Of a DNA stretch of 64,000 nt, positions 2,528 to 25,801 are shown piece after piece; positions within the stretch are counted from its first letter, which is position 1, and each line of letters opens with the position of its first letter. The position numbers and the translations under genes were made by a program. Where the stretch lies: contig NZ_JACJPI010000084.1 of assembly GCF_014695975.1 (NCBI RefSeq), positions 62,001 through 126,000 on the forward strand. The letters are read 5' to 3'. This DNA is from Leptolyngbya sp. FACHB-321 (GTDB taxonomy: Bacteria; Cyanobacteriota; Cyanobacteriia; Leptolyngbyales; Leptolyngbyaceae). The notes under the pieces were generated by a model. That model did no database searches and was not told where the DNA came from. It saw only the letters and a program-made list of their open reading frames with translations.

Positions 2528-3859
2528 ATGATTCCGGCTTCCGATCACTATTGGCTGAGAAACGCTCATATCCCAAAACCGCTGCTAGACCAGAGCCAGC
2601 CCATACTTACAGGGAGCACTCAAGAGCTTCAATTCACCAACCTGGAACCCAGCGATTTTTTGCAGGTCGATCTTAAAATTGACAACGGCACGATCGCCGC
2701 GATCGTCCCTGCTGGACAAGTGATCGACGACAGCCCCTCTGCTGATCTACAAAACGGTATTGTCTTTCCCTGCTTTGTCGATCTGCATACGCATCTTGAT
2801 AAAGGGCACGTTTGGGAGCGGGCACCAAATCCTGATGGCACCTTTAACAGCGCGATCGCTACCATACAAACCGATACGCGGCACTGGGATGCAGACGATC
2901 TATATCGTCGGATGTCGTTTGGGCTGAAGTGCAGCTATGCCTACGGCAGCAAAGCTGTCCGCACACACATTGACGCTTCTGGTGAACAAGCGGCAATTAG
3001 TCTAGATGTTTTCAAAACCCTTCAAGCAGAATGGTCAGAGCGGCTGTTGTTGCAAGCGGCTTCCTTGGTGCCACTAGAGTATTACCTCACGCCAGCAGGC
3101 GAACAGCTTGCCGATCAAATTGCCGCAGTGGGTGGCATTTTAGGCGGGGTTGCCTACATGGACGCCGCGATCGCGCAACAGGTCGATCGCGCTTTCACGC
3201 TGGCAAAAGAACGAAATCTTGCGTTGGACTTTCACGCAGACGAGACGAATGAGCCAAATTCAGCAACATTGCGCGTTATTGCTGAAACCGCTATTCGACA
3301 TCAATATCAGGGGCGAGTCGTCTGTGGACATTGTTGCAGCCTTGCCGTGCAATCAGACGAAATAGCAGCAACGACGATCGCCCTCGTTAAGCAAGCCGGG
3401 ATCGGCATCGTCAGCTTGCCAATGTGTAACCTTTACCTGCAAGATCGGCAAGTTCGTCGTACACCTCGTTGGCGGGGTGTTACGCTGTTGCACGAGCTAC
3501 AGCAAGCTGGAGTGCCCGTTGCGATCGCCAGTGACAACTGTCGTGATCCCTTCCACAGTTTTGGCGACCATGATGGTCTACAAGTATTTAGCCTCTCAGT
3601 CAAAATTGCCCATCTAGATCGTCCTTACGGTACCTGGTGTCGCTCCATTACAACCACTCCGGCTAACTTAATGGGTTTGCCGACAGTGGGACGTATCGGC
3701 GTAGGCTTGCCTGCCGACCTCGTTTTGTTTAAGGCGCGCCGCTATAGTGAACTGCTGTCTCGCTCTCAGCACAATCGCACGGTTCTTCGTGCTGGTAGGG
3801 CGATCGACACCACACTACCCGACTATGCCGAACTGGATGATGTTCTTACCAAAACATAG
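2528..3859 (+). CDS. Cytosine deaminase-like amidohydrolase
   Basis: A 443-residue metal-dependent hydrolase of the cytosine deaminase/AtzC branch of the amidohydrolase superfamily, which removes amino groups from pyrimidine or triazine rings. Visible metal and catalytic motifs are HTHLD near residue 88, a THIDAS strand, FHADETNE (metal His plus catalytic Glu), GHCC, and SDNCRDPF (metal Asp). The C-terminal part returns to the small beta-domain (VGLPADLVLF). I chose the ATG at 2528; the frame is open 21 codons further upstream but that part is not family-like. Substrate is inferred from family only. pdxA follows on the same strand after 127 bp. Confidence 0.78.
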   Translation: MIPASDHYWLRNAHIPKPLLDQSQPILTGSTQELQFTNLEPSDFLQVDLKIDNGTIAAIVPAGQVIDDSPSADLQNGIVFPCFVDLHTHLDKGHVWERAPNPDGTFNSAIATIQTDTRHWDADDLYRRMSFGLKCSYAYGSKAVRTHIDASGEQAAISLDVFKTLQAEWSERLLLQAASLVPLEYYLTPAGEQLADQIAAVGGILGGVAYMDAAIAQQVDRAFTLAKERNLALDFHADETNEPNSATLRVIAETAIRHQYQGRVVCGHCCSLAVQSDEIAATTIALVKQAGIGIVSLPMCNLYLQDRQVRRTPRWRGVTLLHELQQAGVPVAIASDNCRDPFHSFGDHDGLQVFSLSVKIAHLDRPYGTWCRSITTTPANLMGLPTVGRIGVGLPADLVLFKARRYSELLSRSQHNRTVLRAGRAIDTTLPDYAELDDVLTKT

Positions 3860-3986: not shown

Positions 3987-5111
3987 ATGCTATCCGATAC
4001 AAAGACCTATACGCCTCAGTTAGCTGTCACTCTCGGTGATCCAGCAGGCATTGGTACAGAAGTAATCCTCAAAGCCTTGGCGGCTCCACTTGCAGGTTGC
4101 GTCATCACACTTGTGGGCAGTCGATCGCGCCTCGTAGCCACCTATCAACAATTGCGATCGCGTCATCCAACGCTGCCCCTGGCAAACCCAGACGATTTGC
4201 AGATTCTCGATATCACGCTTGCTCCTGACCTTGAGCAGCAAATTGCGATCGGTCAGGAAAGTGCTGCCAGCGGAGCCGCCAGTTTTCAATATCTCGAAAC
4301 GGCGATCGCCCATGCCCTCTCTGGAGCTTTTCATGGCATCGTCACAGGACCAATTTCTAAAGCTGCCTGGAGTGCTGCGGGTCATCCATACCCCGGACAA
4401 ACGGAATTGCTGGCAGAACGAGCAGGGGTCGATCGCTTTGGGATGTTGTTTGTTGCTCGATCACCGCACACAGGTTGGATCTTGCGAACGCTGCTTGCTA
4501 CAACTCATATTCCCCTACGCGACGTTGCAGATGCGCTCACCCCTGCCTTGCTGACCCGTAAGCTCGATCTATTGCTTGATTGTCTGCGACAAGACTTTGG
4601 GCTAGAAGCACCACGAATAGCGATCGCGGGACTCAATCCTCACAGTGGCGAACAAGGCAAGCTGGGGCACGAAGAGCAAGATTGGCTGATCCCCTGGCTC
4701 GAAGACACTCGTTTGCGGTTGCCGCACCTTCGATTAGATGGACCCACGCCACCCGATACACTATGGGTCAAACCAGGGCAAGCGTGGTTTGGCAGCACCC
4801 AGACAGCGGCAGCGTTTAATCCTGCCGACGCTTATTTAGCCCTCTATCATGATCAAGGACTGATCCCAGTCAAGCTGATGGCATTCGATCGAGCAGTCAA
4901 TACGTCGATCGGACTACCTTTTGTGCGAACATCCCCTGATCACGGTACAGCCTTCGACATTGCTGGGCTGGGCATCGCAGAAGCAACCAGCATGAGAGCA
5001 GCACTAGAACTGGCAGTCGCACTATGTCACGAGCGCTATAAAACTGGGAACACTGAAACGTCTGACCAGCTCTCTAGTGGCAGCGCTAATGTAGCTGTTA
5101 CAGGCATTTAG
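3987..5111 (+). CDS. pdxA: 4-hydroxythreonine-4-phosphate dehydrogenase PdxA
   Basis: PdxA oxidises 4-phosphohydroxy-L-threonine with NAD in the DXP-dependent pathway to pyridoxal 5'-phosphate (vitamin B6). Recognisable family blocks are [16 protein letters not shown] at the N-terminus, TGPISKAAW plus [13 protein letters not shown], and the three metal-binding His contexts [14 protein letters not shown] and [23 protein letters not shown] lies near the C-terminus. At 374 residues it is about 25-40 longer than usual; the extra residues form a polar tail after the last conserved helix. Cytoplasmic homodimer by family knowledge. Confidence 0.95.
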
Positions 5112-5930: not shown

Positions 5931-6308
5931 CTAAGAGGGTGCGTTTTGGTTTCTGAGTGTTTCCAACTCAGCACGCATCGCTGCAATCTGCGCGGTTAGC
6001 TCCTGCAACTCTAGCTGGATTTCAGGTGCGGCAGATGTCGTAGTAGCGGTTGTACTAGTCGTACTTGAAGCTGGAGGCTGGTTATTGCGCTGAGCCAGAA
6101 GCGTATCCACAAAGTTACGAGCCTCTTGCTCTGTAACCTCACCCTTTTGTGCCCATTCGGATGAGAGTACGCTCCACTCCTGATTCAGCTTTGAGAGGTT
6201 CTCATGACGTTTCTCGGAGTCTTGTATCACTTCTACTAAAGATGCTGTTGCACCAAGTGTGACGCGAAAACCGTTCTGAAGCAGTTGTACAAGATTGTCA
6301 GCATTCAT
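5931..6308 (-). CDS. Small cyanobacterial protein, phasin-like features
   Basis: A 125-residue cytoplasmic protein with an N-terminal helix NLVQLLQNGFRVTLGATASL, a polar helix, and EARNFVDTLLAQ. A Thr/Ser/Ala/Pro-rich linker (about residues 73-92) follows, then a C-terminal coiled coil (LQELTAQIAAMRAELETLR). This layout resembles short phasin-type or scaffold proteins, but I cannot assign a family with certainty. The ATG at 6306-6308 was chosen for its AAAGGA ribosome-binding site; the open frame continues 28 codons upstream without similarity. It lies 103 bp downstream of another small gene on the same strand. Confidence 0.7.
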   Translation of the reverse strand: MNADNLVQLLQNGFRVTLGATASLVEVIQDSEKRHENLSKLNQEWSVLSSEWAQKGEVTEQEARNFVDTLLAQRNNQPPASSTTSTTATTTSAAPEIQLELQELTAQIAAMRAELETLRNQNAPS

Positions 6309-6411
6309 TTCAGCCACGTCCTTTACTAGCGATGCGAATAGTCTAAGCCCATTTTTTTCAAAACTTCGATTTGTGCAAAAATTCAATGCCAAAATCGACG
6401 TTCTTTTTCAC

Positions 6412-6753
6412 TTAGGATTGCTCTAAATATTGATTGATGTCTTCTATCAGACGGCTGAGTTCCGCTTCTGTTGTCAAACGAATGCGATCGTCTCTTACCG
6501 TGATCAAGACTTTAGCGGCAAAGGGCGTTGCCCAAATGTTAGGGTTGCAAAAAATTTCGAGAAACACATCACCTGTGTACTGATACTCCATTGGCTTTTG
6601 CGGCGTAGCGCGACTGCCAGGGGCTGTCTTTACGGCTGTGGCTTTGAGGCGATCCATTAACTGAGAGAGTGCCGTTTGCAGTTCTGCGGCAGCCTGGGGC
6701 GTAAAACTAATGGCAACAGACCCCTCGAGAAGATTGATAGTGAACCGAGACAT
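6412..6753 (-). CDS. Conserved hypothetical protein, 113 aa
   Basis: A small soluble protein starting MSRFTINLLEGSVAISF. It has a predicted beta-helix pattern, a polar linker near residues 45-55, and a block GDVFLEIFCNPNIWATPFAAKVLITV followed by RIRLTTEAELSRLIEDI. I do not recognise the family; it appears cyanobacterial because of its setting. The ATG at 6751-6753 is preferred over one four codons upstream. It precedes the small coiled-coil gene on the same strand and they could share a transcript. Confidence 0.7.
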   Translation of the reverse strand: MSRFTINLLEGSVAISFTPQAAAELQTALSQLMDRLKATAVKTAPGSRATPQKPMEYQYTGDVFLEIFCNPNIWATPFAAKVLITVRDDRIRLTTEAELSRLIEDINQYLEQS

Positions 6754-22276: not shown

Positions 22277-23212
22277 TTAAAACTCCAAGCTAGGCACTGG
22301 ATCACTATGGACAGCAGTCATTTTAGGATGCTGCTCTTGAAGATTTAAATGGTCTGAGAGTAGGGCTTGTAGTTGGCTATCAGTTAAACAAAGAATTTCT
22401 ACACCACTAACAGTACGGAATTGCGCCGCACATTCTAATGGAAATAATTTTTGACCAATTTCTGAACTACGAGCCAATTCTAGCCTTTCTCTAAATGACA
22501 TTGCTTTTACTTCCTGTCGCATAGATTCATACTCAGGTGCAGGAATTGAAGTCCGTGTATTAAACCGCTTCTCTACCATCACTTCATACATACTGGGATT
22601 ATGCATGACGCATTCTCCAAACCAAGGGATTAGTTGAATTTCGATCCCATTACATCTTGTCAACCAATGAGCACCATCTTTGCGTCGAGTAACCTCTGTC
22701 CATCTAAATAAACTATTTGGTTTTTTTGTGATCGCCTGTAAGCTTTTACGAAGAGTAGCTGTTGAAAGCTGCATTTCTCTATATCCAGCTAAGTAACCCA
22801 AAAACAATGTTTTCAACTGTTGGTTATCTGCGGGACATGCTCCAAAACAGATTACTCGTTCGCTCAATTTCTTTAATGACAGCGTGAGCATCTGGAAGCT
22901 GGGTATGAGCTGTCGCTCCGGTATTTTCGTTTGGTTTAAGGTTGGACAGTAATATTCAATGTACTGTTGCTCAAGCTCATTAAGCTCTTTCTGAGCACAA
23001 CTAAGCCAAAATAGCCTGACTTCACATCGTTTATTGATTGCTTCAAGTTGAGGTGAACGATGATGCTTTTGCCAACGATTTCTTAAGTTTGTTGCCAGAC
23101 CAACGTAGAGAACCTGATCACGAGCGATCGCAAAGTAAATTGCAGAACATTCTGGTAATCTTTCCCTCTCTAAAAGCTTTAGGTTTGGTAATGTACTAAA
23201 TTCTTGTAGCAC
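22277..23212 (-). CDS. GIY-YIG nuclease family protein
   Basis: A 311-residue protein with an N-terminal GIY-YIG domain (about residues 15-95). The two motifs appear as SAIYFAI and VLYVGLATNLRNRW, and the metal-binding Glu region is LEQQYIEYYCPTLNQTKIP. The rest, about 200 residues, has no domain I recognise and may bind DNA or be a host-specific part. GIY-YIG enzymes cut DNA and occur in homing endonucleases, repair and mobile elements. The gene runs against the surrounding cobalt operon, lacks GCGATCGC sites and is AT-richer than its neighbours, which suggests insertion. No flanking repeats were found by eye. Confidence 0.82.
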   Translation of the reverse strand: MLQEFSTLPNLKLLERERLPECSAIYFAIARDQVLYVGLATNLRNRWQKHHRSPQLEAINKRCEVRLFWLSCAQKELNELEQQYIEYYCPTLNQTKIPERQLIPSFQMLTLSLKKLSERVICFGACPADNQQLKTLFLGYLAGYREMQLSTATLRKSLQAITKKPNSLFRWTEVTRRKDGAHWLTRCNGIEIQLIPWFGECVMHNPSMYEVMVEKRFNTRTSIPAPEYESMRQEVKAMSFRERLELARSSEIGQKLFPLECAAQFRTVSGVEILCLTDSQLQALLSDHLNLQEQHPKMTAVHSDPVPSLEF

Positions 23213-25096: not shown

Positions 25097-25801
25097 TTAA
25101 GTGAGGGCTCGCTCTTGCTGGTATTGGGTCACATCTTCAGCTTGTTCTAACTGCTGAAGCGAATTCAAAGCTAAGAATCCGAAGCCAACCTTAGCCGCCA
25201 CATCCAGAATCGTATAACAGGCAGATTCGGCAACACTTCCGATTACGTTAAAACCAGTACTTGCAAGAATCCAAACGATCGGATAAGCCGTCCAAATAGC
25301 AATGTGAACTGTTAATAAGCGTTTAAAGGTTTTCTTGGATCGGGGGTAATGTTGCTCTGCTTGCTGGCGATAGTATTTCAACAACAAATACACCAAGCCT
25401 GCGTAAGCACCACAGCTCACGATATACCAAACGTTACTAATTGGTTTGGATGAAATTGTGGCAACAAACCCAGTCACAATCATGTAAACATCAGCACCGA
25501 TCATACTGGCTGCAATGACAATACTGGTTCGCCCAAGATAGCTAAGTAAGATGAGTGTTAATGGGGTAGAAAAAGTCCAGGTTAAGTATCGAGTTAGGTA
25601 GGCAGGACGATCGCCAATATAGGTAAAGCCTTGCTTAAAAATCATTGCCAGATACAACGATGCGGCAATAGCACAAATAAAGAAATTCAAACAATAAACA
25701 ATCTGCCACGACTTACCTTTTGCACGATCGGCTCCAAAGCCAAAAAAGATTGATCCTACGGTCATGCTGATGCATCCCAGCCAAAGCCAAACCTGTGTCA
25801 T
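25097..25801 (-). CDS. Microbial (type I) rhodopsin, halorhodopsin-like
   Basis: A 234-residue seven-helix retinal protein. Helix C reads RYLTWTFSTPLTLIL, which aligns with the bacteriorhodopsin helix-C block. Arg71 is the Arg82 equivalent; the Asp85/Thr89/Asp96 positions are Thr74, Ser78 and Leu85. Helix G has LDVAAKVGFGFLAL with Asp200 and the retinal Lys204. Thr/Ser at the first two positions is typical of halorhodopsins, so an inward chloride or other anion pump is the likely role. MTQ(V/A)WLW and VTGFVAT resemble, from memory, the Mastigocladopsis pump MrHR, which has Asp at position 85. Leu there is unusual. No retinal-forming oxygenase lies nearby. Confidence 0.9.
   Translation of the reverse strand: MTQVWLWLGCISMTVGSIFFGFGADRAKGKSWQIVYCLNFFICAIAASLYLAMIFKQGFTYIGDRPAYLTRYLTWTFSTPLTLILLSYLGRTSIVIAASMIGADVYMIVTGFVATISSKPISNVWYIVSCGAYAGLVYLLLKYYRQQAEQHYPRSKKTFKRLLTVHIAIWTAYPIVWILASTGFNVIGSVAESACYTILDVAAKVGFGFLALNSLQQLEQAEDVTQYQQERALT

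Follow-up and report, generated by a model that had tools for sequence, protein, structure and literature searches.

The window analysed here, a stretch of 64,000 nucleotides from Leptolyngbya sp. FACHB-321 (NCBI RefSeq assembly GCF_014695975.1, contig NZ_JACJPI010000084.1, positions 62,001 to 126,000), carries a gene for a microbial rhodopsin with Leu at the site of Asp96 of bacteriorhodopsin (BR), and the question raised by this locus is which ion such a protein would move, and whether the Leu sets it apart from its relatives. A previous sequence-only reading had taken the helix-C triad Thr74, Ser78 and Leu85 (TSL) as the sign of an anion pump of novel make-up. We conclude with high confidence that the protein is a cyanobacterial halorhodopsin (CyHR) of a TSL subclade, which would pump chloride inward and probably sulfate as well, where the transport, its direction and the use of sulfate are what we infer from the sequence.

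The rhodopsin gene and its family

The open reading frame starts with the ATG at 25801 and runs for 234 codons on the minus strand, a strand left unstated in the sequence-only reading, while the plus strand of 25097–25801 contains many stops in the frame read. Its product matches the Pfam family PF01036 (Bac_rhodopsin) over residues 2–216 (E 2.1e-44), and it is the sole match to this family in the draft genome (6.7 Mb, 97% complete). This domain, the seven long helices of the predicted structure and Lys204 are those of a microbial (type I) rhodopsin. The nearest relatives are L068, from the genus of the window, and L018, which are 86% and 85% identical, respectively. Between the window's rhodopsin (hereafter the query) and L068, dN is 0.084 and dS is 1.09 (dN/dS about 0.08), and the nucleotide differences at the three codon positions number 29, 14 and 90, the third position accounting for 90 of 133. 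Because of these close relatives, the low dN as compared with dS, and the excess at third positions, the reading frame is not a chance one, and the gene at 25801–25097 is under purifying selection. It is an intact, conserved gene of a known kind and, judged by its sequence, should be functional. Broken or truncated CyHR copies, as judged from the assemblies, occur in five further genomes, including one of the window's genus, with L048 as a sixth, and would lend some colour to the view that the query gene, too, is decaying or non-functional; this is extremely unlikely, however, in view of the full-length frame, the low dN/dS with L068 and the retention of the retinal and anion residues.

Several of the broken copies deserve description in their own right. 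In genome G417, of the window's genus, locus L082 retains at 1504–1629 only the first ~42 CyHR codons (81% identity to the query) in a locus that itself continues, and there is no other match to the query in that genome; this remnant probably reflects a recent loss of CyHR within the genus. The gene of Scytonema sp. NIES-4073 (L053) lies in three ordered pieces over ~3.6 kb (2842–3000, 4221–4301 and 6001–6417), as if inserted DNA had interrupted it twice. The frame is broken, an internal piece is missing or an internal stop is present, as assembled, in L048, L051, L054 and L055, several of which are MAGs with assembly error possible; the apparent TSV motif of L051 was rejected as an out-of-frame reading of the broken gene. 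The CyHR gene seems to decay often.

A search of the PDB sequences retrieved MrHR of Mastigocladopsis repens (6k6i, 6xl3) with E 1.1e-85 and SyHR of Synechocystis sp. PCC 7509 (7zou), a chloride and sulfate pump, with 6.4e-84, the next match being at 2.4e-46. Since locus L005 agrees with the SyHR chain at each of the 234 residues, SyHR numbering can be read directly. The AlphaFold2 model of the query, built from 30 rows, has a mean pLDDT of 91.5, and superimposes on MrHR (6xl3) with Z 35.4 and rmsd 0.8 Å over 223 residues, on SyHR (7zou) with Z 35.0 and rmsd 1.0 over 224 residues, and on cyanorhodopsin-II with Z 32.6. The gene and the codons to which the following sections refer are given below, and related rows are named by their triad (TSL, TSD or TSI).

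25097–25801, minus strand: rhodopsin gene, CyHR of the TSL type, 234 aa (reading frame, profile, alignment, tree and model)
25580–25582, minus strand: Thr74 codon, BR Asp85 site; an anion ligand in SyHR as described in PMC9617919
25568–25570, minus strand: Ser78 codon, BR Thr89 site; an anion ligand in SyHR as described in PMC9617919
25556–25558, minus strand: Thr82 codon, BR Leu93/PR Leu105 site in the retinal pocket; Thr in 15/15 TSL rows, Leu in 31/31 TSD and 4/4 TSI rows
25547–25549, minus strand: Leu85 codon, BR Asp96 site, third letter of the triad (alignment)
25490–25492, minus strand: Asp104 codon, BR Asp115 site; Asn104 in SyHR and MrHR (alignment)
25304–25306, minus strand: His166 codon (SyHR His167), the CyHR helix-F His (alignment; described in PMC9617919 and PMC11995866)
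25256–25258, minus strand: Thr182 codon (MrHR Glu182, SyHR Thr183), sulfate determinant as described in PMC9525653
25226–25228, minus strand: Glu192 codon (SyHR Glu193), part of the initial sulfate sites proposed in PMC11995866
25202–25204, minus strand: Asp200 codon, BR Asp212 (alignment)
25193–25195, minus strand: Ala203 codon, BR Ala215, the A/TS colour switch described in PMC8514524; Ser in 30/31 TSD rows
25190–25192, minus strand: Lys204 codon, the retinal Schiff base Lys (alignment)

The five residues on which the sequence-only reading was built (T74, S78, L85, D200 and K204) are borne out by the alignment with their numbers exact, and MrHR, as stated there, carries T74/S78/D85 at the same residue numbers in a gapless alignment with the query. 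The anion pump of the MrHR/SyHR kind, with a retinal Lys and Asp200, is likewise the type of protein to which the sequence points. R71, T74, S78, H166, E192, D200 and K204 are invariant in all 15 TSL, 31 TSD and 4 TSI rows; these include the helix-C anion ligands T74 and S78 and the helix-F His found in 50/50 CyHR rows, which is described as characteristic of the CyHR clade only (PMC9617919). Asp at the BR Asp96 site, a majority state of the family (TSD) rather than a defining one, is replaced by Leu85. MrHR is 57% identical to the query (128/223) and has the same fold, with T74, S78, H166, D200 and K204 at the same numbers, but its Asp85, Leu82, Asn104, Ile136, Glu182 and Ser203 are Leu, Thr, Asp, Leu, Thr and Ala in the query. 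SyHR, 52% identical (121/233), has in common with the query Thr at the sulfate-determining site, Glu192, Arg71, His166 and its side of the free CyHR tree, and differs from it in Asp85, Leu82, Asn104, Thr137, Ser204 and Lys33, the last of which is Gln in the query. The TSI rhodopsins of Nodosilinea and relatives (L043, L045, L046 and L047) likewise do without Asp85 and keep T74/S78/H166, but unlike the query have Leu82, Asn104, and Ser in place of Asn39. The archaeal halorhodopsin (TSA) resembles the query in combining a non-acidic BR Asp96 site with Thr/Ser anion ligands (table in PMC5877348), but has no counterpart of His166 and is phylogenetically distant according to the description in PMC9617919, rather than by our tree.

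The same comparison bears on a proton pump like the cyanorhodopsins (CyR and CyR-II). Asp104 (12/12 rows) and Ala203 are common to the query and the DTD/DTE outgroup, and the change T74D is described as turning MrHR into a proton pump (PMC9617919). Cyanorhodopsins, however, have Asp at the BR Asp85 site and Asp or Glu at the BR Asp96 site, whereas the query, with T74 and L85, has a carboxylate at neither, and its His166 is absent from the 12 outgroup rows; proton pumping is accordingly very improbable.

The TSL clade and the residues that accompany Leu85

The loci compared came from named genomes (50), from a sample across the phylum, in which 11 of 386 genomes had any match to the query at E 1e-10, and from the order (18 matching of 42 genomes), and a MrHR row was added from the PDB. 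The usable CyHR rows number 50, namely 31 TSD, 15 TSL and 4 TSI (28, 13 and 4 distinct sequences, respectively), the 31 TSD rows including L048 in spite of a break in its frame near codon 19. Rows dropped as broken or partial were L051, L053, L054, L055, L064, L082, L088, L090 and L092; L012 gave no match on re-search, and L007–L011, L065–L067, L081, L083, L086, L087, L089 and L091 were dropped as non-CyHR. Twelve non-CyHR rows of the DTD or DTE type (L006, L056–L063, L080, L084 and L085) served as outgroup. In the tree of 63 rows, the 50 TSL, TSD and TSI rows together with L052 form one side of a branch with 100/99 support. L052 itself, from a non-cyanobacterial Rubrivirga MAG, has a TTD motif and a His at the CyHR helix-F site, places beside the CyHR clade, and was assigned to no group.

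Within CyHR, a branch with 100/100 support, recovered in 100% of 200 bootstrap trees, sets the 15 TSL rows apart from all others. The triad is therefore not new, contrary to the novelty first claimed for it: alignment with MrHR, SyHR and other CyHRs, the check that had been proposed, yields TSL in 15 of 50 CyHR rows (13 of 45 distinct sequences), and TSL was published as a variant of CyHR as early as 2018, TSV, TSL and TSI being described as accepted motif variants beside the majority TSD (PMC5877348, PMC9617919). Eleven of the TSL rows, the query included, come from the window's family (f1); two from Phormidesmis priestleyi map to this family by identity (L020 = L075, L021 = L077), and the last two come from MAGs labelled Hydrococcus and Cyanosarcina. 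The TSL rhodopsins of P. priestleyi ULC007 and BC1401 and of the MAGs 'Hydrococcus sp. Prado102' and 'Cyanosarcina radialis HA8281-LM2' are 65 to 85% identical to the query and agree with it in the triad, T82, D104, L136, A203 and T182, while the Phormidesmis rows have Ser211 where the query has Ala211. A degenerate DNA pattern for the helix-C signature RYxTWxxSTPxT, with zero mismatches allowed, matched 11 of the 388 genomes searched in the class; these all belong to the window's family and fall in 3 of 160 genera. The reversed control of the pattern had no match among the rows listed.

In the free tree, TSL is nested within TSD, the TSI clade is separate from TSL, and SyHR, TSI and TSL group together (97/91), away from MrHR. 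Approximately unbiased (AU) tests reject neither TSL and TSI as one clade (p 0.376) nor TSD and TSI as one clade (p 0.143), and are compatible both with two independent losses of Asp85 (in TSL and TSI) and with one, as well as with TSL either derived from within TSD or branching off early in CyHR. Three genomes of the window's family, G406, G407 and G414, have four, four and three rhodopsin places, respectively, where TSL pumps occur along with rhodopsins of the DTD, DTE or DTS type, and where the set includes near-copies or fragments.

Leu85 does not vary alone. A position was counted as fixed if TSL and TSD share no residue there and 14 or more of the 15 TSL rows agree, and eight such differences were found (positions 10, 35, 82, 85, 100, 104, 135 and 136); T82, M100, D104, G135 and L136 occur in 15/15 TSL rows and in none of the 31 TSD rows. 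Five of the eight (35, 82, 85, 104 and 136) are among 15 residues of the ion-release section of SyHR as described in PMC9617919. This overlap has P 2.7e-5 against 233 positions, and P 0.007 at positions at least 90% conserved in each group (4/7 vs 12/85), values that serve as a guide only, since L82, D85 and N104 were already in view when the test was devised, and residues in contact with each other do not count as independent. In SyHR, Asp85 is described as held by Asn39, and Asn39 by Ser212, within a shell of L35, L89, F208, I42 and L82, while a cavity IC2, reported as lacking in MrHR (Ile136), is lined by N104, T137 and H167 (PMC9617919). The TSL rows keep Asn39, L89, F207 and I42, and have Leu at 85, Thr at 82, Val at 35 (14/15), Ala at the Ser212 site (10/15), Asp at 104 and Leu at 136. 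Thr82, Leu85, Val35 and often Ala211 would thus line the pocket that in other members contains Asp85, and His166 would be flanked by Asp104 and Leu136. Asp104 and Ala203 (both 12/12) and Leu136 (8/12) are also outgroup states, so these three may be ancestral rather than new. The cytoplasmic half of the TSL proteins is, on the best reading, remodelled, and their photocycle and colour are probably altered. As the triad was already known, the interest appears to lie in this coherent, co-inherited residue set, and we think that T82, D104, A203 and T182, absent from the sequence-only reading, are more likely to matter than L85.

The anion path and the choice between chloride and sulfate

In the mechanism that we propose, the query would bind all-trans retinal on Lys204, and in the dark an anion would lie near Thr74 and Ser78, the protonated Schiff base and Arg71. 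Light would cause this anion to be released to the cytoplasm past His166, and the next one would be taken from outside via the Arg71/Glu192 basin, giving an inward chloride pump. Removal of the corresponding His167 of SyHR is reported to impair both chloride and sulfate transport (PMC11995866). With Thr182 in place of MrHR Glu182, sulfate would probably be moved too, as in SyHR. Position 182 is Thr in 15/15 TSL, 9/31 TSD and 4/4 TSI rows, so that all TSL members have the non-acidic residue expected of a SyHR-like sulfate pump. The absence of a negative charge at this site is described as key to sulfate pumping, Glu182 being the key residue against it, while the cytoplasmic end of helix F, where SyHR is more basic, supplies residues that help (PMC9525653).

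How much weight Thr182 can bear alone is the crux of the rival view, a chloride-only pump like wild-type MrHR in which other residues decide on sulfate, and to which we give a substantial chance, though one clearly short of even. The single change E182T is reported to raise the relative sulfate activity of MrHR from 0.008 to 0.092 only, with further residues of the helix-F cytoplasmic end raising it more (PMC9525653); positions 63 and 160 vary within the TSL clade, and the query has Gln at the K33 site. This Lys is described as lying near the crystal sulfate site of SyHR (PMC9617919), but K33A reportedly had no significant effect on SyHR transport (PMC11995866). Against the chloride-only view, the query is SyHR-like, that is, basic, at 156, 157, 160 and 161, in addition to having Thr182 and Glu192, and it groups with SyHR, away from MrHR. 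Judged on these residues, the odds that the query pumps sulfate seem a little better than even.

Two of the TSL changes could limit transport. Thr82 could slow the cycle so far that the query pumps poorly. What the Asp at the BR Asp96 site does for a cyanobacterial anion pump is said to be unclear, and a hypothesis cited in the same source holds that it prevents the backflow of chloride (PMC9617919); if this is right, the loss of Asp85 might allow backflow, and L85 could therefore matter for pumping against a gradient.

Photocycle, colour and genomic setting

Counted without gaps from R71 (BR R82), Thr82 falls on the BR Leu93/PR Leu105 site. SyHR L82 is described as part of the retinal-binding pocket and as moving in the K state (PMC9617919), and BR Leu93 as contacting the retinal 13-methyl, L93A giving a long-lived O state with no loss of transport efficiency (PMC3411786). 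By analogy, T82 would be a better kinetic suspect than L85, and we expect the coupled TSL changes to affect ion choice less than they affect colour and retinal re-isomerisation (the late N/O decay). Replacement of BR Leu93 by Ala or Thr is reported to slow N and O decay, according to the title of Subramaniam (1991) as cited in PMC3411786. Such slowing and the fixation of T82 in the TSL clade would suit a slow, weakly pumping or sensory photoreceptor, in which a late state made long-lived by Thr82 and the altered cytoplasmic half would serve for signalling. We regard this as improbable: the tested anion-path residues are kept, a scan of nine neighbouring genes in the window recognised no transducer, none of the other loci tested showed the window's neighbours next to its rhodopsin, and BR L93A keeps its efficiency of proton transport (PMC3411786).

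For the pump, a change of colour relative to MrHR and SyHR is likely. Position 203, the site of the A/TS colour switch (PMC8514524), is Ala in 15/15 TSL and Ser in 30/31 TSD rows, and position 82 is the site of the L/Q switch, where volume rather than hydrophobicity of PR residue 105 is reported to correlate with wavelength (PMC8514524). BR Asp115 is described as bonding Thr90, which keeps it protonated (PMC3411786); given that Thr79, at the BR Thr90 site, is invariant (15/15 TSL, 31/31 TSD), Asp104 may sit protonated against Thr79, or may face His166. Tentatively, and at a likelihood somewhat lower than that of the chloride-only pump, the TSL proteins may even form a functionally distinct type of anion pump, in which Thr82, the Asp85-pocket changes and the His166-exit changes go together: chloride or sulfate would leave past a His166–Asp104 pair without an Asp85 network, the colour would differ, as the L/Q and A/TS sites are altered relative to MrHR and SyHR, and a long-lived late intermediate would make these proteins a natural counterpart of the BR Leu93-to-Thr mutant.

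The TSL clade offers a natural set of CyHRs without Asp85, with an altered surrounding pocket and a different exit-cavity residue beside the His, for comparison with the solved MrHR and SyHR, and its natural Thr at a retinal contact where BR mutants are slow is useful for studies of colour and kinetics, and possibly for optogenetic silencers; if all behaves like SyHR, the query is simply one more member. No measured TSL protein was found in the main text of open-licence PMC papers. A later anion pump has reportedly come from Tolypothrix campylonemoides, and the CyHR found in this species (L022) is TSD.

The supply of retinal in the host is plausible. Four carotenoid-oxygenase genes in the genome pass the family cut-off; L014 matches the Synechocystis apocarotenoid-15,15'-oxygenase (2biw) with E 7.5e-188, and the other three do so with 6.9e-68, 7.7e-69 and 4.1e-42, which makes L014 a likely retinal-forming enzyme.

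The rhodopsin gene stands alone. On one side, a cobalt-type importer (cbiM, cbiN, cbiQ and an ATPase) converges on it, and on the other, upstream, lies a ribose-type transport operon on the same strand as the rhodopsin gene. When eleven window proteins were searched by tblastn against 17 loci, many of them reaching no more than about 1.5 kb to either side of the gene, the rhodopsin was recovered in every case and, apart from it, nothing but weak cross-matches of ABC ATPases (27 to 37% identity). The window's neighbours are thus not conserved within reach of those loci, and genomic context was rejected as a clue to function. Promoter-like matches numbered one, with 2.1 expected by chance, and no terminator-like site was found, with 1.0 expected. 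A viral origin was rejected, as a search of viral contigs gave no relative, and so was a plasmid origin, as the nine plasmid records retrieved all fell below 37% identity.

Some neighbours are common to close relatives (L020 and L021, and L072 and L074). L072 and L074 come from two genomes of genus g154, and in both the TSL rhodopsin converges on a gene pair resembling ABC-transporter ATPases, the ends lying within ~2 bases. In the window itself, a 311-aa GIY-YIG domain protein is encoded between cbiN and cbiQ at 22277–23212 (minus strand), on the strand opposite to the cobalt-importer genes, which it splits.
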